In this document: positions 1,610-16,616 of the stretch, piece by piece
How the letters are laid out: every line of letters starts with the position of its first letter
How positions within the stretch are numbered: the first letter of the stretch is position 1
From: Verrucomicrobiia bacterium
Lineage (GTDB): Bacteria; Verrucomicrobiota; Verrucomicrobiia; Limisphaerales; CAIMTB01
Assembly: GCA_019634625.1 (NCBI GenBank)
Contig: JAHCBA010000010.1
Span: 1-64,000 of the forward strand
Direction of reading: 5' to 3'
Length of the DNA: 64,000 nucleotides
Notes under the pieces: generated by a model
What the model saw: the letters and a program-made list of their open reading frames with translations, nothing else
Told to the model about the DNA's origin: nothing
The model's database searches: none
Program-made: the position numbers and the translations under genes

Positions 1610-3151
1610 TCACTTCAACGCCCCCGGCAACCGTTCCACCACCGCCTGCGCGGCCCGCAGCACCGCCGTGTTGGCCGCCGGGTCCAACCGTTCGCCGCAT
1701 CGGAACTCCGGCAGCGTCTCCCAGGCGCCCGGAAGCAGGCAGTGATCCCCGTTCACCAGAATCCCCAGGAACAACCCCGTCCGCGTGAACGCCAGGTCCC
1801 CTTTCCGCGGCGCGAAGTCCCCCATCCAGCGCCGAAACGTCGAGCGCTCCATCTGCACGTAACCCGGCGAATTCGGCACCAATCGGAACTGGCACTCCCC
1901 GTAATTCGTCCCCCCGCCCCCGATCACCACCGCCTCGCCGAATTCTGACGGGTCCCCCACCGCCTCGTACACCCGCACGCCGAGCGCCGCTGGCACCGCC
2001 GGATCCACCGGGATCATCACAATCCGCGGATCCCTCGCCAACAGGGCGAACCCGGGCAACCCCGCAACGGCCCCGCCCCGTGTCACCTCGGCCGAGAATC
2101 CCGTCCAGGTCGCCTCCGGAGGCCAGAGCCGCAGCGGAATCGCATCGACATGCACCAGCCCGTACACCCGCTCCCCCTCCCGCACGAACACCATCCCCGT
2201 CTCGCGCCGCCTCACCACCTCCTGCCCGAACCCGCCCCGGGTGGTGCCCGCCACCGCCAGTTCCACGCGGTTGGACAGGAACTCGCCATAGATGGCGTTG
2301 GCCGGCAGACGGACCTGCCGCTCGATCTGTTCCCGCAGGGCCCCCGCCTGCTCGGTGTGCCGCTCGATCTCCGTCCGGATCGCGCTCGACTGCTCGCTGA
2401 TGACCGTGATGTTGGTCGCCAGCCTCGATGTGGTCTCCAGCAGCTCCGCCCTTTCACGCCCCACCGTGGCCAGTTGCTCGTTCAGGTTGGTCGCCAGCAT
2501 CCGCGCCGCGCGCGCCTCGACCTCGGTCTGCCGCAACTCCATTGCCAGCGCCCGCTTCTCCTCGTTCAACGCCTCCCGCGTCTCGTCCAGCACCGCCATC
2601 CGCCTCCGCATCGCCTCCGCCTCCTGCCGCTGCCGCGCCAGATCCTCCTCCATCGTCCGCAGCCGCGCCGTCGCCTCGGCAGCCTCCCGGGTCGAATCCG
2701 TCAGCCGCTCCCGGAGCGTGTCCGTGTTGCGCTGCGTCACCTCGAACGCCTGGTGCAACGCCTGCACGCTCGCCAGGGCCTCGCTCTGCCGCTGCTCCAG
2801 CCGCAGCCGCTCCTCCGCCAGTCGCCGCGCCTCCGTCTCCGATGCCTCCAGCCGCCCCCGCACCTCCGACAGGTTCCGCTCCCGCTCCTCGATCACCTTC
2901 CGGCGCTGCTCCAGCTCCGCCTGCGTCGCCGTCAACGCCTGGCTCAACACCCCCCGACGCTCCCGCTCCGACTCCAGGGCCATCTCGAGCGTCGTCAGCA
3001 TGTTGCTCATCGCCGGCGCCGACACCGCCGGCCGCGTTTCCCCCGGCGCTGCCGCAGCACCCGCCACCGGGGCCGGGGCATCGAACTCCACAAACGACAG
3101 CAGCGTCAGGATCAGGAAGTCGCAGATGACCAGCAGCACCGACCGGTTCAT
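1610..3151 (-). CDS. MotB/ExbD-like membrane-anchored coiled-coil protein
   Basis: A 513-residue protein with a very short N-terminus and one transmembrane segment, SVLLVICDFLILTLLSF, at residues 4-20. It carries a single Asp (residue 11) in the membrane, as in the ion-channel helix of MotB, ExbD and TolR. A long coiled coil follows (about 50-290, rich in E/R/L/A/Q heptads). The C-terminal globular domain (about 300-505) is mostly beta in character, with GTNYGECQFRLV and GDLAFTRTGLFLGILVN. No OmpA-like peptidoglycan domain is seen. Its start overlaps the stop of the MotA/ExbB-like gene by 4 bp (ATGA), so the two are probably translationally coupled. I infer the B subunit of an ion-driven stator; the load is unknown. 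Confidence 0.6.
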   Translation of the reverse strand: MNRSVLLVICDFLILTLLSFVEFDAPAPVAGAAAAPGETRPAVSAPAMSNMLTTLEMALESERERRGVLSQALTATQAELEQRRKVIEERERNLSEVRGRLEASETEARRLAEERLRLEQRQSEALASVQALHQAFEVTQRNTDTLRERLTDSTREAAEATARLRTMEEDLARQRQEAEAMRRRMAVLDETREALNEEKRALAMELRQTEVEARAARMLATNLNEQLATVGRERAELLETTSRLATNITVISEQSSAIRTEIERHTEQAGALREQIERQVRLPANAIYGEFLSNRVELAVAGTTRGGFGQEVVRRRETGMVFVREGERVYGLVHVDAIPLRLWPPEATWTGFSAEVTRGGAVAGLPGFALLARDPRIVMIPVDPAVPAALGVRVYEAVGDPSEFGEAVVIGGGGTNYGECQFRLVPNSPGYVQMERSTFRRWMGDFAPRKGDLAFTRTGLFLGILVNGDHCLLPGAWETLPEFRCGERLDPAANTAVLRAAQAVVERLPGALK

Positions 3152-4866
3152 GGATCCTTCCTCTCCGCCGACTCGAGAATCAGTTGCTGCCGGTACGGCC
3201 GTACATGCATCACCTTCAAAACGAAACAGAAGAGGATCCCGAACAGCGTGGAGGAGTACGACGCCATCAGGCTGATCTCGTCCATTCCCGTCAGCCGCAT
3301 CACCAGCGCCAGCACGCTCCCCCCGATCCCGATGTACAGCGGCGCATCGAACATCGCCTCCTCGTTGTCCAGCAGCCGCAACTTCGTCCCACCCTCCTCC
3401 AACCGCCGCCGGATATGCCGCAACCGCCCCAGCGCCACAAAATAAATGGCAAGCTGGATCACGAAGAACGCCACCAGCATCGCAAGCACCTTCTCGTTCA
3501 TGACGGCTGTCGTGACCTGGGGGATGTCGAGCCGCAACCGGGCCTGGAAGACGGGCGCCACGGACGATGCCCCAGGTTCCAACGGCACCGATTTCAGCAC
3601 GAGCAACCCCTCGCTCGCGAGGAAAAGCAGCACCGCCCCCGCCCCCGTCACCGCCAGCAGCCGCCCGATGGCCGGACGCGGCTCAAACTGACGGCTCGCC
3701 TCGTTCAACCCCAGCCGCCGCCCATGCCACAGGCCAAGCACCAGCAAGAACAACCCGTCCAGCCAGAGCAGATACTTGGCGGCCAGCGAGAAGCCTGGCG
3801 CCCGCAGCGCCGACCTTCCAAGCCATTCTGAAACCCCTTCCAACCGCAGCGCCTTCAGCACCCGACCCCGCATCCCCGCCTCGCGCACCCGTTGCTCCCG
3901 CTCCAGCAGCGCCCCCAGTGCCCCACGCCCCAGTGCCACCGCCTGCCCAAGATCCGACAACCCTGCCGCTCCGTGCCGGTCCAGATACGACGCCACCGCC
4001 CGTGCCCCGCCCTCCAGCACCACCGCCGAAAACAACCGGCCCCATGCCGGCCCGTCGTGCCCCGCCACCCCGACCAGCACGCCCAGACTCCGCAGATCTT
4101 CACAACGCTCCATCAACGTTGCCAACCGCTCCCAATCCATCATCCGCGCCGCGGCCAGCAACTCCAGCATCCCCGCCTCGATCCGCACGCTGTCCCCCCG
4201 GCGCAACGCCGCCATCGCCTCCCGCTCCAGTTCCAGCATCAGCACCGGGTGAATCCGGCCCGACTCCACCAGCACCCCCGCCATCAGCAGCGCCGCCTCG
4301 AACGGCTGGCCCGAAGCCGAATGCACCGGGGGCAGCAACCGGGTCTCCTCCAATCCCCGGCAGGCCAGCAACGCGCCGGTCACCGGATGCGCACTTGCGC
4401 CCAGCGCGTGCCGCAGCACCTCCCGGATCTCCTCCGGCACCAGCCAGTCCAACACCGTCGGCGCACGCCCCTGTCCCCCCGCCACCCTGTCGCCCACCGT
4501 CCCGTCCAGCCATGAGTTCGGTCCGCCCCACCGCGCCAGCCGTGAATCCCCATCGAAGCGCCATCCCACCACCGCCAATCGCGCCTCCACCTCCGCCGAC
4601 GGCCCGGCCGCCTCATACATCCACCGCGCCGGTCCCAGACGCCCCGCCGCCATCGCCCGGTCCGCCTCCTCGATCAGCGTCGGCGTCCCCCGGCTCGCCG
4701 CCACCAGAACGTCCCGATCCACCGTCCGCACCTGCACCGGAATCAGCGCCCCCAACGCCAGCAACAGGCATCCGGCCGCCAGCATCCCCGCCGCCTTCCA
4801 CCGATCATTCCCCGTGGCCGCTGCCGACCGACCGCGGAGAAACGGATTCTTCATCCACTCATGCAT
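3148..4866 (-). CDS. MotA/ExbB/TolQ-like multi-pass membrane protein with long N-terminal domain
   Basis: About 572 residues. One membrane segment lies near the N-terminus (MLAAGCLLLALGALIPVQV), followed by a soluble, helical Ala/Leu/Arg-rich region of some 300 residues. At least four more membrane segments follow. The last two helices (YIGIGGSVLALVMRLTG and YSSTLFGILFCFVLKVM) match the pattern of the pore-lining helices in MotA/TolQ/ExbB, including the Gly-rich turn and the small-residue ST motif. The region between them and the previous helix (RHIRRRLEEGGTKLRLLDNEE) is charged and cytoplasmic-looking. The ATG at 4866 is preferred over a TTG at 4902; a start at 4854 is also possible. It overlaps the downstream coiled-coil gene by 4 bp. 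I do not know a named family for the N-terminal part. Confidence 0.55.
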   Translation of the reverse strand: MHEWMKNPFLRGRSAAATGNDRWKAAGMLAAGCLLLALGALIPVQVRTVDRDVLVAASRGTPTLIEEADRAMAAGRLGPARWMYEAAGPSAEVEARLAVVGWRFDGDSRLARWGGPNSWLDGTVGDRVAGGQGRAPTVLDWLVPEEIREVLRHALGASAHPVTGALLACRGLEETRLLPPVHSASGQPFEAALLMAGVLVESGRIHPVLMLELEREAMAALRRGDSVRIEAGMLELLAAARMMDWERLATLMERCEDLRSLGVLVGVAGHDGPAWGRLFSAVVLEGGARAVASYLDRHGAAGLSDLGQAVALGRGALGALLEREQRVREAGMRGRVLKALRLEGVSEWLGRSALRAPGFSLAAKYLLWLDGLFLLVLGLWHGRRLGLNEASRQFEPRPAIGRLLAVTGAGAVLLFLASEGLLVLKSVPLEPGASSVAPVFQARLRLDIPQVTTAVMNEKVLAMLVAFFVIQLAIYFVALGRLRHIRRRLEEGGTKLRLLDNEEAMFDAPLYIGIGGSVLALVMRLTGMDEISLMASYSSTLFGILFCFVLKVMHVRPYRQQLILESAERKDP

Positions 4867-4956
4867 CGATGCGCCGCAGGACAGACTTCCGCCATGCCCC
4901 AACGCGGTGCCCCATCCTCCCCATTCCCATCCCCCGGCTCAACAAGCATCACCACC

Positions 4957-5004
4957 CGCCCTCCGCCCTCAGCCCTCCGCCCTCAGCCCTCCGCCCTCAC
5001 GCCC
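4957..5004. repeat. short CT-rich tandem repeat (CCCTC-CGC/AGC units)
   Basis: The stretch repeats CGCCCTC-CGCCCTC-AGCCCTC with 7-nt periodicity between two genes of the minus strand, ending directly at the stop codon of the next gene. A similar run reappears inside the coding linker of the fused oxidoreductase at about 27810-27890. Confidence 0.7.
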
Positions 5005-5832
5005 TCACGGCCCGCCCAGCCACAGCGTCGGAGTCTCCCCGTACCGGGCCAGTTCCTCCTCGCTCTCCACCGCCAGTTCGTCCGGGAAATACACTTTCAC
5101 CGCGGTGAACCGGTCCTCCCGCCAGTGGTCCTCTCTCAACAACCAGTTCCTCACATACCCCGCCACCGACTGACGGCACGCCTCCCGGACCAGCGCAATA
5201 TGGAGCGGGTCGCCCGCCCGCTCCGACAGCGTCGCCGTCAGTTCGCGCTCCAAGGCCTCGAGGTGGCCGCTCTTGTCGAATCGTGCCCAACCGCTCTCGG
5301 CCCGCTTCTCCATGCCGTCGGTATGGATCGCGGGCGGAAGACTCGGCCGGATCGGCGGTGCCAGCACCACGCACACCTGGTCCCGTACCGCCAGCTTCCA
5401 CGGATCCGATAGCCTCACATGATACCGGAACGTCACCGGAACCCGGATCTCCGCCAGCGTGGTCCCGAGATACACCCAGTCCCATGCCACCCGGCGCGCG
5501 TCCCGTCGCGTGATCGTCTCCTCGCTCCGTGACGTCGCCAGCTCGAGTATGTCCCCCTGATTGCGGCTGACCTCCGGGATCCCCTTCCGGAACGTGTGTG
5601 TGATCGTCCCCGTCTGGAACCGCTCGGCAATCCCCGGCGCGTTCGTCACCACATACCGCACCAGGTCCACGCCCCCGTCCGCCACCTGCCGCGCCTCCGA
5701 CAACGTCCGCAAATACGCCACCAGCGCCAGACATCCCAGCGCGATCGCCGTCGCCGCAAGAAGCGCCACCACCCAGGGAAAGCGCGGATGGGCAGGCTCG
5801 ATGCGGCTTCGGATCGGGACCGGAGGTTCCAT
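5005..5832 (-). CDS. single-pass membrane protein of unknown function, upstream partner of the stator-like pair
   Basis: A 275-residue protein with a membrane segment at about residues 18-40 (FPWVVALLAATAIALGCLAL). A soluble domain follows with RYVVTNAPGIAERFQTG, VAWDWVYLGTTLAEIRVPV and a C-terminal EELARYGETPTLWLGGP. No family was recognised. The open frame extends upstream to 6057, but that part only translates an intergenic repeat, so the ATG at 5832 is used. It is the first gene of a minus-strand group and lies 138 bp from the MotA/ExbB-like gene. By position it may be an accessory subunit of that complex; this is inference. Confidence 0.6.
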   Translation of the reverse strand: MEPPVPIRSRIEPAHPRFPWVVALLAATAIALGCLALVAYLRTLSEARQVADGGVDLVRYVVTNAPGIAERFQTGTITHTFRKGIPEVSRNQGDILELATSRSEETITRRDARRVAWDWVYLGTTLAEIRVPVTFRYHVRLSDPWKLAVRDQVCVVLAPPIRPSLPPAIHTDGMEKRAESGWARFDKSGHLEALERELTATLSERAGDPLHIALVREACRQSVAGYVRNWLLREDHWREDRFTAVKVYFPDELAVESEEELARYGETPTLWLGGP

Positions 5833-6588: not shown

Positions 6589-6639
6589 TAAGAGCCTGTC
6601 TGAAAACTGGAAGGGGCCCTGTTTTCAGACAGGCTCTAA
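6589..6639. mobile_element. MITE-like 45-bp element with 16-bp perfect TIRs and TAA target duplication
   Basis: GAGCCTGTCTGAAAAC (6592-6607) is a perfect inverted repeat of GTTTTCAGACAGGCTC (6621-6636), with a 13-nt centre. TAA flanks it on both sides (6589-6591 and 6637-6639). Ends of the GAGCCT...GAAAA type and 3-bp TNA duplications are known for IS5-group (IS1031-like) elements. The element contains no transposase and ends inside the stop codon of the giant secreted protein gene. It could also act as a transcription-blocking hairpin, but it has no T-tract. Confidence 0.6.
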
Positions 6640-9600
6640 GGCCCGCCCAGTCCAACCACCCGGTAAAACCGGCCTGCCACCAGCCCTTCCGGATCGATCC
6701 ACGAGGCCGACGACCCGGTGGCGGTCACCGGGCTTCCCAGATTGCTCCACGCCCCTCCCAGCGACGCCGCAAACTGCACCTGGTAAACGCCCCCGGCCCG
6801 TGCGCTCCACTCGATCCGCACCCCAGCCGTTCCCGCGTCGATCGCCGTGAAGCGGATGGTCTCAACCGCCCCACCGGCATTGAGCCGGCCCGGGGTCGGC
6901 TGGTTGAAACGGACCACCGAGCCCACCGCGCCGTCCGGCATCAACCCCTCGCTGACGTCCCGCTCCTGGGGCCCGAAATCGACATGGTCAATCAGCGTCC
7001 CCCCCGGCGAGTACAACGACAGGCTTTCACCGTCCCCGCTCAAAGCGAAGTCCACGTGGAGATCCCGTCCGGGCGCGTTCTGCTCCGGCTGCCCGTCCGC
7101 CCAGACCAGCATCACCGCACCCGGCGCCAGGATGAACCCGGGCGGAATCACCGACTTGGTCGGGTTGTTCGGGTTGTCGGTGACCGAGTAGCCCGTCAGG
7201 TCCACCGGCGCGCTCCCGGCATTGTAGAGTTCGAACCAGTCGTCGAACGCCCCGTCGGCGGGGTCGGCAATCGTGCTGCTGTTGCGCGCCATCCACTCGT
7301 TGAACACCACCCGCACGGGCAGCGAAGTGGGATCGTTCGGCGCCCCCGGCGTCGGGATCTCGAACACCCGCCGCTCCGACCACGCACCATCCGGGAATGA
7401 TCCGACGGACCGTCCCGCCCCCACTCCCGCGTAGTGAACGAAATCCACCGCCGCCGGAAGCCCGTTGTGACTCCGCGACAGCACCACCGAACCCGCGCCC
7501 GGCGTCAGCGCAAACGACGCGCGCCAGCCGGCAGGTCCCGTCGCCTGGCCGTCCGCCCACACCACCCGGAATTCCCCGGCTCCCAGACTGGCCCCCGCCG
7601 GAAACGCCCAGCGCCCCGGAGCCGTGGGATCGTTCGAGAGGAACCATCCCGCGAGACTCACCGCCTCGGCCCCCGCATTGTAAATCTCGATCCAGGGAGA
7701 ACTCCCGGTTCCAGCCACCGGCTGCGGCAACACCTCGTTGATCCACACCTCCGGAAACGGCGGCAGCGTCGCCGCCATCGAACTGGGCGCTCCAGGGGTC
7801 GCAAACGCAATGGGCCGTTCCCGCGCATCGACCACCGTCTGCACCCCGCCTCCGTCCAGCCGGACGGTCAGATCCCCACCATCCCGACCCGCCAGATACC
7901 AGAAGCTCAGCGTGTAGAACTGCCCCTCCACCACCGGCACTGCCAGGGTCTGTCGCACCGACGCCGCGGCATTGAAACCGTCCGCCCCCGCCACCAACCG
8001 CAGGCTCGACCCGCCCGATCGACTCACGCCCGTGTCGATGAACGACCCCGCCACCGCCGGATCGGCCGACCAATGCGGCGCCAGGGCCTCCTCGAAGCCG
8101 CCGTTCGTCACCAGCTCCGTTCCCACCCGCGGCACCATTCCCGCCACCAGCGAAAGATCATCCACATGCACCGCTCCGGGGCTGCCCATCGAGATCCGCA
8201 CTTCAGAGGAGCGCGCCCGGTCGGTCACAGAAACAAACCGCCACACCGCATGCCCGTGCCCGTCGGCGTCCACCGCCCCCCAGTTCGACGGCCTGCGATT
8301 GTCCTGGGCGGGATCGATGACCTGCAGCGATCCACCCATTCCCCGGGCCCGGAACGGCCACGGAAGGCGGTTCCCATAGGTCACCTCATCGACCAGGATC
8401 CACGGATTCGCCGGAGTCCCCGGCCGCAGCAGCCGCAGCGTTTCGCCCGCATTGTCCAGCCTCCCCGGAAACGCCCCCAGCACCGGCACGGCGTTCCCAT
8501 GTTCCCGCACGAAAATCGTCGGGTCCTTGACCAGCACCCGGTAGGCCCCCGGCGGCAGCGCCGTCCCGCCCGGGAACGTGTAGTTCACCCCGTCGAGAAA
8601 CCACCCCGACAGGTCAAAGGTGGTCCGCTCGGAGCGGTTCAGAATCTCGACAAACTCGGCGTCGGGATCCAGCGGCTCGTACATGATCTCGGTGATCCGC
8701 ACAAAGTCCTCCGGCGCCTCGTCCGCCCCCGTGAACTCGACATCCACCGCCTCCAACGCCCCGCTCACCCGCTGCCCGTGGCGGTTCAGCCCTTCGAGCA
8801 CCAGACGGTTCGCCCCCGCCCGCAGCGGAACACTCAACGTCCAGTTCGTCCGCGTCGTCCACACCGGCTGATACGCCGCGCCGTTCACCGAAATGGTCCG
8901 CACTTCGATCGGGGCGGTGCCTGTCAGGGTCAGGACATTGCTGTCCGAGGTGACTGTTCCCTCGCCGTCGATGGACCACGGCGCCGTGTTGGTGGCCAGC
9001 ACGCCGGCGAGATAGAGCCTGCGATTGGCGATCCACGACTTCACCGGCGCCGGCGAGGCGGCGTCCAGCCCGTGCGCCTGGAGGGCCTCGTGGTTGGCGT
9101 CCATCAGCGGGTCCGCCACCCCCGATGCCAGGGCGCCCCGCACCGCCTCCGCAAACAACTGCAGATACACGCGGCCAAAATGCGGATGACGGTACAGCCG
9201 CGTCATCACCGGATCGTCGGCCACGAAGATCTCCGTCGTCTCCCCGTCGCTCCCTCCCCCCAGGGAGAAGTCCAGATCCCACAACAGCAGGTTCCAACGC
9301 CCGCCCGGCGGGAGATACGCGAAGGTGTTCTTCCCACGCCGGTACCCGTAACCGTCCCAGTCCCCGACCACCCGGCGGGTCACAATCGGCCCAAGCCACC
9401 CGTCGAGGTCCAGCGTCTCCTCCACCCGGCGGTCATACCCCTCGCCATCCGGAAGGTTCAGCACCTCGACCAGGTTGAGGAAACTCGAGTAGTCGTCGTC
9501 GAGGCCCCGGTTCGACTTGCGTTCCCAGTTCCACCGGTACCGGGTCTGGGTGAGTTCGCCCTGCCGCGTCGGATACGCCTCGAGCCGGGCGTCCCGGTTG

Positions 9601-12600
9601 AACTCGCGCTCCACCGCCGTGTTGAACTCGAACCAGTCGTCGATCTTGTAGATCTCCCCGCGGTCGGCCTCCGGAAACCAGCTCGACATGTACTCGCCGT
9701 TGGGCTGCTGCGAATCGGTGTACACCAGCCCCCGCCGGACGCCGTTCACATAGACCTGGATGTAGCGCGTGTGGCTGAACGGCACCCCGAGCTGCTCCCC
9801 AATCCAGAACGACATCCTCTCCCGCTGGAGGGTCGGGTCCCGACCCGGCTGTTCGAGCCAGTCCAGATTGAACTCATCGGATCCCAGCAACCGGTCATCC
9901 GAGGGCGTGGTCCAGATGTACCCGCACAACGATCCCATCGGGCCCGTGTAGTTCGGCCGGATGAACGGACTGCCCCGGTACCGCGCCCCGGCGTTGTAAA
10001 TGGCCCGGTGGTTCCCGTACACGATCGTCCCGTCCAACGCCTCGTTGCTCATGTATTCCCGCTGCGCCCAGGTGTCCGTGTTCGCCTGGGTCATCCACAA
10101 ACGGTACGTCCCGAAACTCCCCGCCGGCGTGGCGTCCCCAAACCGTACCAGGCACGCCCCCGCCTGCGGGTCCGCCGGAAAGGTCGCCGTCGCCGCCAGC
10201 GTGGCGCCATCCGTCGCTTCCACCCAGAACGCCACCAGCACCCCCTCCGCCTGCCCCGGAATCGTCGCCGTATAGATGCCGTCCCCGGCCACCCGGTCCC
10301 CGTTCCGCCCGTCGTCCCGCATCGGCAGTTCCTGCACGCTCACCGACGGATCGAACCGATACCGCAGACGCACCGAACCGACGCCGTCCGGATCGTGCAC
10401 CCGCGCCGTCACCCGCACCGGTTCCATCGCCGCGGGCAGCACCGGGGCGTGAGCCACCTCGTACACCGCCGGTCCGGCGTTGCTCACCCGACGGCTGTTG
10501 GGCTCCCCCGGCGTGCCCAGGTGACGCGGGATCGGCAGCTCGACCACGCCCTCGAGGTAGTTCCCCTTCAATCGCATCAGCAGCTCGGGATGCCCCCGCA
10601 GCCAGCGCACGTCGGCCCGGATCCGGGCCGTGCTGTTCTCGGTCAGGGAACTGCCCCGCAGCACCGTCTTGATCCGGTTCGCCCCGTTGTCGCCGCCCGC
10701 GCTCGCCCGCAGATGCAGGCTTCGCGGACTCTGGTATCCGCCCGTCCCCAGGCCCGAGGCGACATGATTGCCCTGGGAAATCCATCCGTTGAGACCGCCC
10801 TCGAAGCCCGGATTCACCACCAGGTTCGCCCCGCCGGGGTCCACCACCTGCACGTTGTCGATCAGACACTCCCCGGCCCGCAACAGCATGATCTGCAGTT
10901 CCGACGGCACCCCGACGCCCAGCTCCAGCACCCCCGTGACATCCAGCGTCGTCCACTCGCTCTTGCCCGTCTCGTCGCTGTCCGCCCAGTTGGCCGCCAG
11001 CCGGCTGTCCGCACGCAGATCGATCAGCTCCATGCTGCTCCCCCCGCCGTCCGACCACCGCCCCCATCGCCCTCCGTCGCGGTACGTCACCTCCTCCACG
11101 ACAACGTACAGAAAGTTGGTCACCACCGCCCCGCTGGCATCGGTCCCAAGTACCGGCTCCGGTCGCGCCAACGCCACCCGCTCACCCCGGTTGCTCAGGT
11201 TGCCCCCGAAATTCCCGGTCACCCGGTCCGCCGGCAGATCCGGATACGCCTCCCGCATGTACGACACATCCTTCGCCACCACGAAATACCCCCCCGGTGG
11301 CACCACCGCATCCTCCTGAAACACAAACGAAATCCCGTCCACGAACCGCCAGTCCCGAAGATTCACCGGCTCGCTCCCCCGGTTGTGCAACTCCACATAC
11401 TGTCCCGGCTCCCCGACCGGCGGATGGTACATGAACTCGCTGAACACAATCGGCCCGAGCCACGCCGGCGCGTTGCCCGCCCCCGGTGTCGGTCGCTCCA
11501 GGGGTCGCCAGACGTCCGCCCCATCCGGGGCCCTGCCGCTCGACAGGCCGCGCATCTGCGCCCCGAACCGCACCGCGTCCACCACCCGCGCCCCGTCCGG
11601 CCGGATCAGAAACAGATCCTCCCCCGCCGACGTCAGCCCGAACCCCAGCGCCGCCCGGTCCCACGCCACCACCCCGCCCGGCTCGAGGATCGTCCCTGCC
11701 GGAATCACAAACCGCGCCCGCGCCGGATCGTCGGTCAGAATGCCCCCCGACAGGTCCACCGGCACCTCGCCCCGATGGTACAGCTCGATGAAGTCCACCA
11801 TGTCCTCCCCCGGATGTGCCAGCGCCTCGTTGATCACCACGCCGCGCCACGGATCCCGCCCGATGAACTCCCGAGCCCCCGGCGATCCACCCCGAAACTC
11901 GCTCGGCCCCCAGGCCCGCGCATCGCCCTCCCCGTAACTCGGCCGCGCCAGCACCAGCGAATGCCCAGCCCCGTCCGCCTCCACCGGCCACGGCGGCTGA
12001 TCGGAATACCCGACATTCAGCAGCAGCGCCCCCGCTCGATTCCGCAATTGCACCGTCCCCGAATCCCGCGGCAACCGCCCGCTCCACGGCCCCAACACCC
12101 CTTCCAGCCCGTACTCCGCCGCCACGTCCCCGGGCGCCTGTGCCACCACCAGAAAGTCCCCCGCACCCAGTCGCGTCCCCGGCGGAAACGCATACCGCAC
12201 CGAACCCTCGATCCGGAATCCCCCAAGGTCCGCAAACACCGAGTCCGCATTGAACACCTCCACGTACTCCAGCACCCGCCCGTCCTCCCGCGCCGCCGGA
12301 TGATACATGATCTCGCTGATCACCAGTCCCGTCGAACGGCTCGATGGACCCAGCGGCTCGATCCTCCCCGGCAAGGCCCCCTCAGGCGTCCCCTCCTCCA
12401 CATCCCCAAGATCCCGGAACGACGCCCGTGCCACCGCCTGCGTTGAACGGCTCCCCACAAACACCCCGAGATACACCGCGTTCGACATCCCGATCCCCAC
12501 CCGACCCAGGGAACTCCAATCCAGCCCGTCGTAACTGGCATACCCCGTGAAGTTCGTCCCCTGACGCCGCAACCGCAGCCACGTCTCCGGATAGTTCACC

Positions 12601-14084
12601 GGGAAGGCACCGCTCGCCTGCACCACCGCCCCCGTCATGCCCCGCCACGCAAACTGGCTGCCCGCCAGGCTCGGCGTGGACAGCGCCGCCGCAAACGGAC
12701 TGTTGGTCGCCAGACTCTGCCGCACCATCAACCCCGCCTGACTGAACAGCGTCGTCAGCTCCAGCGATTCGATCCGCACCCGCACGTCGAAATCCCCCGT
12801 CCGCACCTGCTGGCTGAAATGGACGTGATCGTTCGTGCCCCACAACCCCGCCCCGTCGGCTGCAATGTTCAATCCGCCCGGCACCGGCTCGATCATCGTC
12901 GGCAAGGCCAGCCGCCCAATGGTCACCGGCGACAACCGCAATACGGTGAACGCCAGCCGGGTGTCCGGCGCAATCGCGTTGGGCGTCGCCGCCCGGTCCG
13001 TCACGCCGTTGACGGTCAACGTGTACGTCGCGTCCGCCTCCAGCGGGGACGTCGTCAGAATCACCTCGTCGTCCCCGCTCCCCCATCGCACCGCACTCAC
13101 CACCGCTCCCCCGTCGAGCGCGTAGTTCCCGCCGACCAGCGCCGTCGCTTCCCGCACCGGTTCGCTGAAGCGCACCACCACCTCGGTGGACGACGCATTG
13201 TACACCGTGACCAGCGTCGGCGGCGTCGTGTCGGCCGTCACCCTCAGCACCGCCTCCTCCGAAACCAGAAAACCCAGCGCGTTCACCAGCGTCACCCGGT
13301 ACCGCGCCCCGTCATCCGTCATGGCCACCCGCCCCAGCGTCAGGGCCGGCCCCGTCCCACCCGGCACGGGCGTCCCGTTGCGCTGCCACTGGTACCCCAG
13401 CGGATCCGTGTTGCGCACCTCGACCCGGAACGTCGCCGGACTCCCCTCGGCCACCGTCAGGCTGGCCGGCTGGCGCGTGATCTCGGGCGGATACAGCGGC
13501 GTTTCGAAGGGCACGAAGTTCACCGCCGGAATCGGCTCCTCGATCCCACCCAGCGGAAGCTGCCAACGGACCGAGAGATGATCCGACCCGCCCCCCTCCT
13601 TCATCAGCGCTTCAATGTAGTAGTTCCGACCCGCCTCCAGCCGCACCGGCGCCGATTGCTGGCCCGGCTGGCTGAACCATGCCCGGAACCCCGTGGCCGC
13701 GTTCACCCGCGCAATCACCCGCTTGCCCGAGGGATGTTCGTCCGGACTCAGGTACAGCACCGAATGATCGTCGCTCGCAATCCAGAACACGTAGTCCCCG
13801 CTCTGCGGCGGCCGCACAAAACCCCGGATCCGCTGCCCGTAGTTGTCCCCGATGTTCTGCCCCGTCTCGAACGCCACCGTCAGCACGTCCCGAAAGGTCG
13901 GCCGGTCCGGAAAATTCGGCGAACCCGTCAGGTCCGCCACGCTGTTGCCCGGGATCCCCGAGTAAAACTCGCGAGACAACCCCGTCGCTTGCGCGTGCAC
14001 CGTCGGGGAACCCGCGGCCAGGGCTGTCAGGGCGAGAATCCACACTCCCAATCGGAGCGGGCGGACGTTGAAAAAGGGCTTCAT
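6636..14084 (-). CDS. giant secreted PA14 / Ig-like / lamin-tail / CotH multidomain protein
   Basis: 2482 residues with a signal peptide (MKPFFNVRPLRLGVWILALT, cleavage near AHA-Q at residue 31). Domains in order: a PA14-like module (about 33-195); an Ig-like domain (196-285, ending DDGARYRVTLVNALG); an SbsA/Big-type domain (290-385); a DUF1349/concanavalin-like domain (390-560). Three lamin-tail domains follow, each opening with (V/I)(I/F)(S/N)E (about 591, 750, 880). Next come a jelly-roll-like piece and a CotH-kinase-like region (about 1350-1700, with YKIDDWFEF and LLLWDLDFSLGGG). Three more LTDs start near 1798, 2113 and 2261. The C-terminal block ends FYRVVGLGGP. The frame extends to 15464, but the ATG at 14084 gives the signal peptide. 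The role is probably cell-surface or extracellular adhesion or carbohydrate interaction; this is inferred. Confidence 0.85.
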   Translation of the reverse strand: MKPFFNVRPLRLGVWILALTALAAGSPTVHAQATGLSREFYSGIPGNSVADLTGSPNFPDRPTFRDVLTVAFETGQNIGDNYGQRIRGFVRPPQSGDYVFWIASDDHSVLYLSPDEHPSGKRVIARVNAATGFRAWFSQPGQQSAPVRLEAGRNYYIEALMKEGGGSDHLSVRWQLPLGGIEEPIPAVNFVPFETPLYPPEITRQPASLTVAEGSPATFRVEVRNTDPLGYQWQRNGTPVPGGTGPALTLGRVAMTDDGARYRVTLVNALGFLVSEEAVLRVTADTTPPTLVTVYNASSTEVVVRFSEPVREATALVGGNYALDGGAVVSAVRWGSGDDEVILTTSPLEADATYTLTVNGVTDRAATPNAIAPDTRLAFTVLRLSPVTIGRLALPTMIEPVPGGLNIAADGAGLWGTNDHVHFSQQVRTGDFDVRVRIESLELTTLFSQAGLMVRQSLATNSPFAAALSTPSLAGSQFAWRGMTGAVVQASGAFPVNYPETWLRLRRQGTNFTGYASYDGLDWSSLGRVGIGMSNAVYLGVFVGSRSTQAVARASFRDLGDVEEGTPEGALPGRIEPLGPSSRSTGLVISEIMYHPAAREDGRVLEYVEVFNADSVFADLGGFRIEGSVRYAFPPGTRLGAGDFLVVAQAPGDVAAEYGLEGVLGPWSGRLPRDSGTVQLRNRAGALLLNVGYSDQPPWPVEADGAGHSLVLARPSYGEGDARAWGPSEFRGGSPGAREFIGRDPWRGVVINEALAHPGEDMVDFIELYHRGEVPVDLSGGILTDDPARARFVIPAGTILEPGGVVAWDRAALGFGLTSAGEDLFLIRPDGARVVDAVRFGAQMRGLSSGRAPDGADVWRPLERPTPGAGNAPAWLGPIVFSEFMYHPPVGEPGQYVELHNRGSEPVNLRDWRFVDGISFVFQEDAVVPPGGYFVVAKDVSYMREAYPDLPADRVTGNFGGNLSNRGERVALARPEPVLGTDASGAVVTNFLYVVVEEVTYRDGGRWGRWSDGGGSSMELIDLRADSRLAANWADSDETGKSEWTTLDVTGVLELGVGVPSELQIMLLRAGECLIDNVQVVDPGGANLVVNPGFEGGLNGWISQGNHVASGLGTGGYQSPRSLHLRASAGGDNGANRIKTVLRGSSLTENSTARIRADVRWLRGHPELLMRLKGNYLEGVVELPIPRHLGTPGEPNSRRVSNAGPAVYEVAHAPVLPAAMEPVRVTARVHDPDGVGSVRLRYRFDPSVSVQELPMRDDGRNGDRVAGDGIYTATIPGQAEGVLVAFWVEATDGATLAATATFPADPQAGACLVRFGDATPAGSFGTYRLWMTQANTDTWAQREYMSNEALDGTIVYGNHRAIYNAGARYRGSPFIRPNYTGPMGSLCGYIWTTPSDDRLLGSDEFNLDWLEQPGRDPTLQRERMSFWIGEQLGVPFSHTRYIQVYVNGVRRGLVYTDSQQPNGEYMSSWFPEADRGEIYKIDDWFEFNTAVEREFNRDARLEAYPTRQGELTQTRYRWNWERKSNRGLDDDYSSFLNLVEVLNLPDGEGYDRRVEETLDLDGWLGPIVTRRVVGDWDGYGYRRGKNTFAYLPPGGRWNLLLWDLDFSLGGGSDGETTEIFVADDPVMTRLYRHPHFGRVYLQLFAEAVRGALASGVADPLMDANHEALQAHGLDAASPAPVKSWIANRRLYLAGVLATNTAPWSIDGEGTVTSDSNVLTLTGTAPIEVRTISVNGAAYQPVWTTRTNWTLSVPLRAGANRLVLEGLNRHGQRVSGALEAVDVEFTGADEAPEDFVRITEIMYEPLDPDAEFVEILNRSERTTFDLSGWFLDGVNYTFPGGTALPPGAYRVLVKDPTIFVREHGNAVPVLGAFPGRLDNAGETLRLLRPGTPANPWILVDEVTYGNRLPWPFRARGMGGSLQVIDPAQDNRRPSNWGAVDADGHGHAVWRFVSVTDRARSSEVRISMGSPGAVHVDDLSLVAGMVPRVGTELVTNGGFEEALAPHWSADPAVAGSFIDTGVSRSGGSSLRLVAGADGFNAAASVRQTLAVPVVEGQFYTLSFWYLAGRDGGDLTVRLDGGGVQTVVDARERPIAFATPGAPSSMAATLPPFPEVWINEVLPQPVAGTGSSPWIEIYNAGAEAVSLAGWFLSNDPTAPGRWAFPAGASLGAGEFRVVWADGQATGPAGWRASFALTPGAGSVVLSRSHNGLPAAVDFVHYAGVGAGRSVGSFPDGAWSERRVFEIPTPGAPNDPTSLPVRVVFNEWMARNSSTIADPADGAFDDWFELYNAGSAPVDLTGYSVTDNPNNPTKSVIPPGFILAPGAVMLVWADGQPEQNAPGRDLHVDFALSGDGESLSLYSPGGTLIDHVDFGPQERDVSEGLMPDGAVGSVVRFNQPTPGRLNAGGAVETIRFTAIDAGTAGVRIEWSARAGGVYQVQFAASLGGAWSNLGSPVTATGSSASWIDPEGLVAGRFYRVVGLGGP

Positions 14085-14237
14085 CACGGGTCCAAGGTTG
14101 ATGCCGTCGCGCGCCATCGCGTCGTCGGGGAATCGCGGCCAACGTGCCAGCGCCGGCAGATCGATGAAAGCCAAAAGACCACAGTTGCGGGCCATTTGGG
14201 GTTGTTCGATTCCGCCGCCTCCCCTAAGGTCCCCCCC

Positions 14238-16616
14238 ATGCTGACCCTCCGGCGACTTCTTGCGGGCTCCCTTTTGCTTGGCGCCGCCGCCCTCGCACCC
14301 GCCCAGGAAATCCCCCCGGACCCCACCAACACCCTCCAGTTCGAGTACTCCGTCGCGCCCACCAACAACGCGATCCTCATCACCGAGACCACCAACCGCA
14401 TCTCGGTCACCATCAGCAACTGGATCGACTTCACCAACATCGTCATCACCGGCCAGCTCGGCACCAACCAGTTCTCCTTCAACCCGGGCGATGACGATGG
14501 CGTCTTCGTCGGCGAACTCCTCACGCCGCTGGTCATGGAACGAACCCCGATCACGATCGCCATCCAGCTCATCGGCGTCGAACTCGCCACCGCCATCACC
14601 GAACCCCCCGCCGATCCCCTGGTCGTCATCAGCAATCGCACCGAGAGGACCTACATCGTCGTCCCCCGCCCCCCCAACGATCGCTTCACCAACGCCTTCA
14701 AACTCCTCAGCGCCGGCGAAACCACCCTCGGCACCAATCAGTACGCCTCCCTCGAACGCGGCGAACCCAGCCACGCCAGCGTCCCCGGCCACGACCGCAG
14801 CATCTGGTGGACCTGGTCCGCCCCCGCCAGCGGCAATGTCCTCTTCGACCTCGCCGGCACCGAGTTCCCCGCCATCCTCTCCGTCTATCGCGGCGACCGA
14901 CTCACCAACCTCGTCAGCGTCGCCTCCTCCACCAACGACACCGCCAATCGCCTCCCCCCCAACGTAGTCTTCAACGCCTCCCAGGGCCTCACCTATCGCA
15001 TCGCCGTCTCCGGCCTCGACTCCAACAGCTTCGGCCGCGTCCGCCTCCGCGTCGCCCCCGGCGGCACGCCCGATACCCGCCCCCCCGTCGTCGCCATCCT
15101 CACGCCCGCCCAGGACTCGCTCGTCACCGACGAACTCCTCGCCGTGACCGGTTCCGCCCGCGAACCCTTCCCCCTCGACTCCGGCGTCAGCAATGTCGTC
15201 CTGCGCCTGAACGGCCAGGTCGTCACCAACGCCGTCGGCACCGACGCCTGGTCCGCCGTCATCGCCCTCCCCCCAGGCACCAACATCGTCAGCGCCGTCG
15301 CCCACGACTTCGCCGGCAATGCCAGTCAGGCCGACAGCGTCGTCGTCCGCTTCCTCAATCCCACCAACACCTACTTCGCCCTCGCCTCCCAGCTCCCCGG
15401 CACCGGCGGCTTCGTCGCCGCCCACAACCGCCAGGCCATCAAGGAATCCGGCGAACCCTTCCACGCCGGCAACGAGGGCGGCCGCTCGGTCTGGTACTGG
15501 TGGCGCGCCCCGTCCGACGGCCGCCTCGATCTCACCACCTCCGGTTCCCCCCTCGACACCCTCCTCGCCGTGTACATCGGCAACGCGCTGACCAACCTCA
15601 CCGAACTCGTCAGCAACGATGACGCCTTCCCCGGCGTCGCCTGGAGCGAAACCTCCCTCCTCGTCAGCAGCAATACCGTCTATCGCATCGCCGTGGACGC
15701 CTTCGGCGCCGCCGTCGGCGAGTTCGGGCTCCAGTACGTCTTCACCCCCCTCCAGGCCGGCACCTTCTTCAATCTCACCGTCTCCCCCGCCAACGGCGGC
15801 GCCGTCTCACCCCCGGGCGGCGCCTTCCCGTCCGGCGCCCGCGTCACCCTCACCGCCGTCCCCCAGCCCGACTTCGCCTTTGTCGGCTGGGAAGGCGATG
15901 TCGCCTCCACCCAGAACCCCATCGACATCGCCATCAACCGCAACCTCCGCGTCACCCCGCGCTTCCGCACCGTGCGCTTCACCGACGACTTCGAAACCGG
16001 CGACCTCTCGCGCATCCCCTGGACCCAGGGCGACCCGCCCTGGATCGTCCAGACCAACGTCGTCGCCGCCGGTTCCTTCGCCCTGCGCACCCCCCCCATC
16101 GACCACCGCCAGACCGCCGTCCTCTCCCTCACCACCAACACCGGCTCCGGCACCGCCTCGTTCGATGTCCGCGTCAGCACCGAACCGGCCTGGGACTTCT
16201 TCGAGTTCCTCATCGATGACACCGTCGTCCGTCGCTGGTCCGGCGAGGTCCCCTGGCAGACCGTCACCTTCAACGTCAGCGCCGGCACCCACACCTTCAC
16301 CTGGCGCTACACCAAGGATCCAAATTTCCAGAGCGGCCTCGACGCCGCCTTCCTCGACAACCTCTACCTCCCCCCGCCCTCCGGCTCCGGCTCCGGCGGA
16401 CAGCAACCCACCCTCACCCTCACCCTCTTCTCCGAGGGCGGACAACTCACCCTCCAGGGCGAACCCGGCGTCACCTACGACTTCGAAGCCGCCCCCTCCC
16501 TCGCCGGCCCCTGGTCCGTCATCGGCTCCCAAAGCTCCTCCAGCGGCATCATCAACCTCCTCGACCTCGAAGCCGTCGGCCAATCCCGCCGCTTCTACCG
16601 CGCCCGCACCCGCTGA
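14238..16616 (+). CDS. large secreted protein with pre-peptidase-like, InlB B-repeat-like and MAM-like domains
   Basis: 792 residues. The signal peptide is MLTLRRLLAGSLLLGAAALA, with cleavage near APA-Q. Two copies of a module reading GEP.H......S.W(Y/W)(W/T)W.AP..G lie at about 140-290 and 375-510; this is the jelly-roll-like, pre-peptidase-C-like repeat frequent in this phylum. Between them is an Ig-like module (about 275-365). About 525-595 resembles the divergent InlB B-repeat (GGAVSPPGGAFPSGARVTL, FVGWEGD). About 600-700 is a concanavalin/MAM-like domain (DDFETGD). A GSGSGG linker leads to a C-terminal block ending RRFYRARTR. The frame is open from 12819, but the ATG at 14238, 9 bp after an AGGT, gives the signal peptide. 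It is divergent from the giant protein with a 153-bp gap. Confidence 0.85.
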   Translation: MLTLRRLLAGSLLLGAAALAPAQEIPPDPTNTLQFEYSVAPTNNAILITETTNRISVTISNWIDFTNIVITGQLGTNQFSFNPGDDDGVFVGELLTPLVMERTPITIAIQLIGVELATAITEPPADPLVVISNRTERTYIVVPRPPNDRFTNAFKLLSAGETTLGTNQYASLERGEPSHASVPGHDRSIWWTWSAPASGNVLFDLAGTEFPAILSVYRGDRLTNLVSVASSTNDTANRLPPNVVFNASQGLTYRIAVSGLDSNSFGRVRLRVAPGGTPDTRPPVVAILTPAQDSLVTDELLAVTGSAREPFPLDSGVSNVVLRLNGQVVTNAVGTDAWSAVIALPPGTNIVSAVAHDFAGNASQADSVVVRFLNPTNTYFALASQLPGTGGFVAAHNRQAIKESGEPFHAGNEGGRSVWYWWRAPSDGRLDLTTSGSPLDTLLAVYIGNALTNLTELVSNDDAFPGVAWSETSLLVSSNTVYRIAVDAFGAAVGEFGLQYVFTPLQAGTFFNLTVSPANGGAVSPPGGAFPSGARVTLTAVPQPDFAFVGWEGDVASTQNPIDIAINRNLRVTPRFRTVRFTDDFETGDLSRIPWTQGDPPWIVQTNVVAAGSFALRTPPIDHRQTAVLSLTTNTGSGTASFDVRVSTEPAWDFFEFLIDDTVVRRWSGEVPWQTVTFNVSAGTHTFTWRYTKDPNFQSGLDAAFLDNLYLPPPSGSGSGGQQPTLTLTLFSEGGQLTLQGEPGVTYDFEAAPSLAGPWSVIGSQSSSSGIINLLDLEAVGQSRRFYRARTR

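Follow-up and report, generated by a model that had tools for sequence, protein, structure and literature searches.

What kind of machine, if any, is encoded by the adjacent minus-strand genes lying close to the start of a contig (JAHCBA010000010.1) of a Verrucomicrobiia bacterium? The window analyzed here, a stretch of 64,000 nucleotides of that contig, derives from a 6.7-Mb genome in 88 contigs (G000), and a first-pass annotation made from its letters alone had predicted a three-gene, ion-driven stator of no known type. Two of these genes are considered here as a potential motor pair, viz., gene A (3148..4866, minus strand, 572 aa), delineated from its ORF, homologs and AF2 model and predicted as the pore or wheel subunit in the MotA/ExbB/TolQ-like position, and gene B (1610..3151, minus strand, 513 aa), delineated from its ORF, its adjacency to A and its AF2 model and predicted as the axle subunit in the MotB/ExbD/TolR-like position. 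The third ORF, coding for a single-pass protein of 275 aa (5005-5832, minus strand), shares their strand and sits upstream of A at a distance of 139 bp.

The pair is flanked downstream by rsfS (1135-1584, with a Pfam RsfS match). A GC-rich 14-bp tandem repeat of 3.4 copies (4956-5006) lies between A and the single-pass gene. Upstream of the latter, Pfam identifies a CotH/lamin-tail protein of 2942 aa (6636-15464, minus strand), a large, secreted surface protein that combines six lamin-tail domains with CotH kinase, PA14 and Ig-like domains.

A and B constitute a two-gene island

The stop of A and the start of B overlap by 4 bp (ATGA, 3148..3151, minus strand). This arrangement recurs in 180 of 275 loci with the gene order conserved, bearing out the initial contention that the overlap fixes the pair. 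Homologs of A and B are adjacent at every usable locus retrieved from the order, in 20/20 loci of other classes, and in 73 of the 80 loci from another contig collection spanning all phyla (the best 80 of 407 matches); the remaining seven are devoid of a callable B, and several of those contigs stop near A. In two genomes, G531 (L338, L318) and G537 (L339, L308), the genes are unlinked, lying on different contigs or about 70 kb apart, with both retained and the Asp11 of B, discussed below, intact. Hence, the case for their partnership goes beyond gene order alone.

Across 286 genomes of the class, A is found in 74 and the B end domain in 68, and a comparison of the two genome lists by eye indicates that every B-positive genome is also A-positive. 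Six genomes show A without a match to B, of which five belong to a single divergent family (f144). In the four loci fetched from this family B adjoins A and begins with 'MKTSILIVMLDFLV', Asp11 included; the fifth genome, G611, one of the 74 A-positives, was left out of this by-hand check. The sixth, G505, has just a remnant of A in broken pieces with several stops (L340) and no B anywhere in the genome, and its same-genus relatives retain both genes, i.e., it represents a recent joint loss of A and B. Thus, G611 aside, an intact A never occurs without B, nor B without A, in these 286 genomes: the two genes form an island in which B is always the partner of A.

No other gene belongs to this island. 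A is present as a single copy in its genome, and in the 16-kb neighborhoods of 40 relatives A and B alone are recurrent, the remaining shared families being either frames antisense to A/B or genes scattered over few loci. No conserved neighbors were recovered at Limisphaerales or Opitutales loci. Flagellar, TonB or Zorya genes were likewise not found among the neighbors at A/B loci, in agreement with what had been noted for the window itself.

Homologs of A are present in 81/196 genomes of the order and in 126/388 genomes of the phylum. Among the best 80 of 407 matches in the other collection, the named relatives are from Limisphaerales (Pedosphaera-type) and Opitutales. Many genomes of the class lack the pair, among them the well-sampled f64/g109 group, and no relatives were detected in the viral contigs and plasmids searched. 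Two contigs titled Acidobacteria and Akkermansia muciniphila (L097, L127) have A genes that closely resemble the Limisphaerales ones and are probably misnamed metagenome bins.

The membrane module of A

The AF2 model of A (pLDDT 87.5) displays a first transmembrane helix (TM1, about 19-41), an all-helical domain, TM2 and TM3, and three conserved helices spanning 458-487, 508-525 and 533-570. In line with the large N-terminal domain described earlier for A, an extensive helical region follows TM1 and precedes a group of transmembrane helices at the C-terminus. The helical domain (residues 46-357; 3796..4731, minus strand), lying between TM1 and TM2, is solenoid-like and is predicted to be periplasmic from the model, hydropathy and charges. 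Full-length A is a feature of the source's class; most other classes instead possess a compact A of 170-220 aa and 4 helices, which lacks this domain and has a single helix followed by some 40 periplasmic residues and the three conserved helices. The B proteins of classes with a compact A are still 530-630 residues long.

The last three helices (residues 458-572; 3151..3495, minus strand) thus constitute the conserved module of A, as defined by the columns of 211 unique sequences, alignments and hhalign. Its first helix bears a glutamine, Q471, in 211/211 sequences. The second combines a D (210 of 211) with a Y, two glycines (G513/G516) and a hydroxylated residue, each present in all 211, the last being S517 here and T in most, to give an always-hydroxylated G-x-x-G-(T/S) motif. 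The third is marked by A-Y-S-S-(T/N)-x-x-G (Y537-S-S-T540-x-x-G543 in the window), with A in 204, Y in 210, S in 206, T/N in 210 and G in 211 of the 211. Both predicted pore-lining helices hence carry conserved hydroxylated residues. Hydropathy and positive-inside charges predict that the C-terminus is inside in both the window A and the compact forms, such that the last three helices would run out-in, in-out, out-in, the order seen in ExbB/TolQ; in compact A, positive-inside charges predict the in/out order of MotA. The TM4-TM5 loop of about 25 residues in the model falls far below that of ExbB, and a sizeable cytoplasmic domain at this point, as in PF01618 proteins, is absent from A.

Homology searches with A returned nothing significant in Pfam, NCBIfam, PADLOC or PDB-sequence scans, and PF01618 matched neither A nor 20 diverse homologs at E-values up to 10. 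A hit to NCBIfam Mul1B (13 bits versus a cut-off of 75, over 25 residues, with no recurrence in other members) is attributable to chance. Foldseek and VIA searches with the whole 572-residue chain as query produced no clear match and no MotA or ExbB chains. A profile of the module was aligned by hhalign with 26 ExbB/TolQ/MotA proteins from within Verrucomicrobiota, giving in local mode a P of 0.0047, or 0.013 against 150 hydropathy-preserving shuffles, which were taken as the control because 8-column block shuffles keep the motif. The alignment with ExbB/TolQ is co-linear over 93 columns and places the G-x-x-G-T and YSST of A on the two pore-threonine motifs of ExbB/TolQ, GLLGT and ALxTT, respectively, with the significance coming mostly from one motif; the global mode gave no signal, and full-length profiles yielded a weak one. 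We accordingly read the module as weakly resembling the ExbB/TolQ pore helices in sequence, a lead and not a proof of homology. Of the stator signature claimed at the outset, the Asp-bearing helix holds, and A adds to it a predicted stator-like topology and two hydroxylated motifs; the sequence evidence for a MotA/ExbB fold of A is weak (hhalign P of 0.005).

B combines an Asp-bearing helix, a coiled coil and a trypsin-like head

The architecture originally described for B, with a short N-terminus, one helix with a single Asp, a long coiled coil and a beta-rich end, is reproduced in its AF2 model (pLDDT 82.8) and alignments. The N-terminus follows the pattern M-N-(R/K)-(S/T)-(I/L)-L-(I/L)-(V/I)-I-C-D-F-L, and hydropathy delineates the transmembrane helix at residues 5-23 (3083..3139, minus strand), with Asp11 (3119..3121, minus strand) in its middle. 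The first-pass annotation had staked its prediction on the conservation of this residue. In a motif-free count, in which simply the frame following A was called at 275 loci, residue 11 is Asp in 265, the ten others being wrong frames, wrong starts or unlinked genomes, and all of the roughly 270 true B proteins examined across the phylum have Asp11; the positions around it vary. The prediction withstood this check.

The coiled coil (residues 51-279; 2315..3001, minus strand) spans about 230 residues, in the model as helices 51-208 and 226-279, and shows strong heptads, with 69 percent hydrophobic residues at a/d versus about 20 elsewhere; it would measure about 31 nm if extended. Matches of B to SMC, MukB/JetC, myosin and tropomyosin are coiled-coil artefacts.

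The C-terminal domain (residues 281-513; 1613..2311, minus strand), earlier held to be unlike known ones, can now be recognized as a trypsin-like (HtrA) domain devoid of the catalytic Ser motif, based on Foldseek, VIA and alignments. The trypsin-like fold extends over residues 281-503. Foldseek matches the AlphaFold model to DegP (E 3.4e-6, probability 1.00), and VIA recovers DegP, Deg9, HtrA1 and the S1C domain of RsgI9 at Z 11-12 over about 170 residues. The link to HtrA is by fold only, since HtrA was not among the PDB sequences recovered by an HMM of the domain; Pfam detects neither PF02472 (ExbD) nor an OmpA-like peptidoglycan-binding domain here. The invariant residues are His334, DPR (374-376) and GD (451-452). 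Placed by eye, His334 falls in the region of the HtrA His, DPR before the catalytic Asp and GD in the Ser-holding loop, where, as judged by eye and not by structure superposition, the G-N-S-G-G site of HtrA is replaced by S-x-G-D-L-V with its G and D invariant. Given this replacement, the domain should be proteolytically inactive, i.e., an HtrA fold that has lost its Ser motif.

Comparison with known motors

The MotA/MotB, ExbB/ExbD and TolQ/TolR pairs share with A/B the adjacent genes with the multi-pass protein preceding the single-pass one, an invariant Asp in the B-type helix together with two hydroxylated helix motifs in the A-type protein, and a B-type subunit with a short cytoplasmic and a long periplasmic part. 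Unlike them, A/B lack PF01618 and PF02472 matches, A couples a very small cytoplasmic loop to a large helical domain, and B terminates in a long coiled coil with an HtrA-like head and not in an OmpA/peptidoglycan-binding or ExbD-type end. Non-flagellar stators are structurally diverse (PMC12505986).

GldL/GldM, which functions in type IX secretion and gliding, is likewise a motor pair that shows no evident sequence resemblance to MotAB, and GldM, as does B, extends at its end into a long periplasmic shaft (PMC9389320, PMC8986121). That shaft is built of globular domains, whereas B has a coiled coil with a trypsin-like head; further, unlike GldLM, the A/B loci have no conserved T9SS genes, and the NCBIfam and Pfam scans list no Gld family for either protein. 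The TPH-vWA proteins of Verrucomicrobia have a predicted Asp pore helix fused directly to a non-canonical periplasmic domain (PMC12204202), paralleling B in that an Asp-bearing helix carries a foreign end domain. They differ in having a vWA end, absent from B with its trypsin-like end, and in often forming heterologous pairs with a recognizable TolQ partner, whereas A is unrecognizable as such. ZorA/ZorB resemble A/B as a stator-type pair tied to a long helical extension; PADLOC returned no ZorA/ZorB match for A, B or the third protein, and there are no ZorC/D/E neighbors. The end of B shares with HtrA/DegP/DegS and the RsgI9 S1C domain the fold, the His at the place of the catalytic His and the DPR motif. 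Unlike in HtrA/DegP/DegS, it is without G-N-S-G-G and a PDZ domain and is linked through a coiled coil to a stator-like helix. A limited search of the literature returned no description of the A/B pair.

A candidate ion-driven motor and its alternatives

Taken together, the co-occurrence of A and B, their conserved order and overlap, the invariant Asp11, the motifs of the A module, the predicted topology, the hhalign register and the HtrA fold point to an ion-driven motor in the membrane, with A and B as its two subunits, comparable to MotA/MotB, ExbB/ExbD and GldL/GldM, a reading to which we assign a probability of roughly two in three. By the searches performed, neither protein is a member of PF01618 or PF02472, and the stator-like working is proposed by analogy; GldLM, which lack detectable homology (PMC9389320), and the TPH-vWA proteins with their foreign end domain (PMC12204202) offer precedents. 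Counted against it are the missing profile matches, the short TM4-TM5 loop, the dependence of the hhalign signal on one motif with its null in global mode, and the kinase link considered below.

In such a motor, a ring of several A modules would encircle the helices of two paired B subunits, perhaps in the 5:2 stoichiometry suggested by analogy (PMC9389320). Protons or sodium ions would cross by way of Asp11 and the hydroxylated positions in the last two helices of A, and the arrival of ions at Asp11 in mid-membrane would drive a stepwise relative rotation. This flow would turn or pull the coiled coil of B, at about 31 nm long enough to cross the periplasm, and the pseudo-HtrA head may pass the force on by gripping a polypeptide or a partner located at the outer membrane or cell wall. 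The helical domain of A could serve as a holding or recruiting platform. The data thus show the partnership, the Asp, the motifs and the domain folds, and we infer the stoichiometry, the ion, the rotation and the cargo.

Of the alternatives, we consider it unlikely, though worth weighing seriously, that A/B constitute a transmembrane sensor or signaling complex, in which the pseudo-HtrA domain would sense a periplasmic ligand, the coiled coil relay the state and A signal inside, with Asp11 acting in packing or assembly. This would accommodate the fact that one of the best fold matches of B is the trypsin-like S1C domain of an anti-sigma factor, RsgI9, and the presence, at 6/20 other-class loci, of a Ser/Thr kinase with an FGE-sulfatase-like end after B. 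The genes for this kinase with its C-terminal FGE-sulfatase-like domain (L196, 9534-11840; L203, 1858-4422; L208, 8457-11048) lie close behind B in the loci inspected and leave room for a signaling role. However, the kinase occurs in just one or two families and is missing at the other 14 loci as well as at those of Limisphaerales, and ion binding accounts better than packing for a lone ionizable residue kept in the middle of a helix and facing an invariant hydroxylated position.

That A/B are a diverged but ordinary ExbBD/TolQR member energizing a known Ton or Tol system appears improbable. Such an origin would account for the ExbB motif register, the topology and the gene order. Yet the genome is already rich in motors of the ExbBD/TolQR type, and the models that recover them miss the pair: PF01618 at E-values up to 1 matched ten other genes and not A, and PF02472 nine other genes and not B. 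Further, no conserved tonB, tolA, pal or receptor gene is found nearby, and the end domain of B is HtrA-like.

A three-gene unit that includes the single-pass protein, as the first-pass annotation had it, is more doubtful still. The shared strand and the gap of 139 bp to A are compatible with it, and A and B indeed form the adjacent minus-strand pair within the proposed trio. However, the single-pass gene is absent from every A/B locus of the relatives examined, same genus included. Its homologs occur in 11/40 relatives unlinked to A/B, lying on a contig other than that of A in G020, G026 and G069 and being present in G001, G005 and G014, genomes without A, and the 14-bp tandem repeat stands between it and A. 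The protein has no Pfam match, and it belongs to a separate family outside the A/B unit.

The least credible proposal, in which the start of B is a lipoprotein or secretion signal with an acylated Cys10 and Asp11 as a '+2' inner-membrane retention signal, and A is an unrelated membrane protein, draws on the Cys10-Asp11 dyad of most B sequences and falls, unless acylation be shown, because Cys10 varies (present in 188/211 unique sequences, with I, V, L, A or T in its place in the other 23) while Asp11 is never replaced, the residue preceding the Cys is I, L or M and not G, A or S, and the hydrophobic stretch runs on past Asp11.

Implications

Returning to the ion-driven motor, a more specific form of it, which we offer tentatively and hold at rather less than even odds, is that A/B represent a separate, ancient rotary-motor lineage of Verrucomicrobiota, invisible to current profiles, whose coiled-coil shaft and pseudo-HtrA grip would handle periplasmic or outer-membrane polypeptides and which would be coupled to a kinase in one group. 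If the motor reading is true, many Limisphaerales, Opitutales and other Verrucomicrobiota genomes would possess a motor so far overlooked because standard profiles miss both of its subunits. The naturally minimal A of 190 residues would then be a simple system for defining the minimum needs of a 5:2 motor, and the genomes with split genes or co-loss make a test of function by gene deletion straightforward. A pseudo-protease as the force-bearing end would suggest, again if the reading is true, a possible role for motors of this kind in pulling on or remodeling polypeptides.
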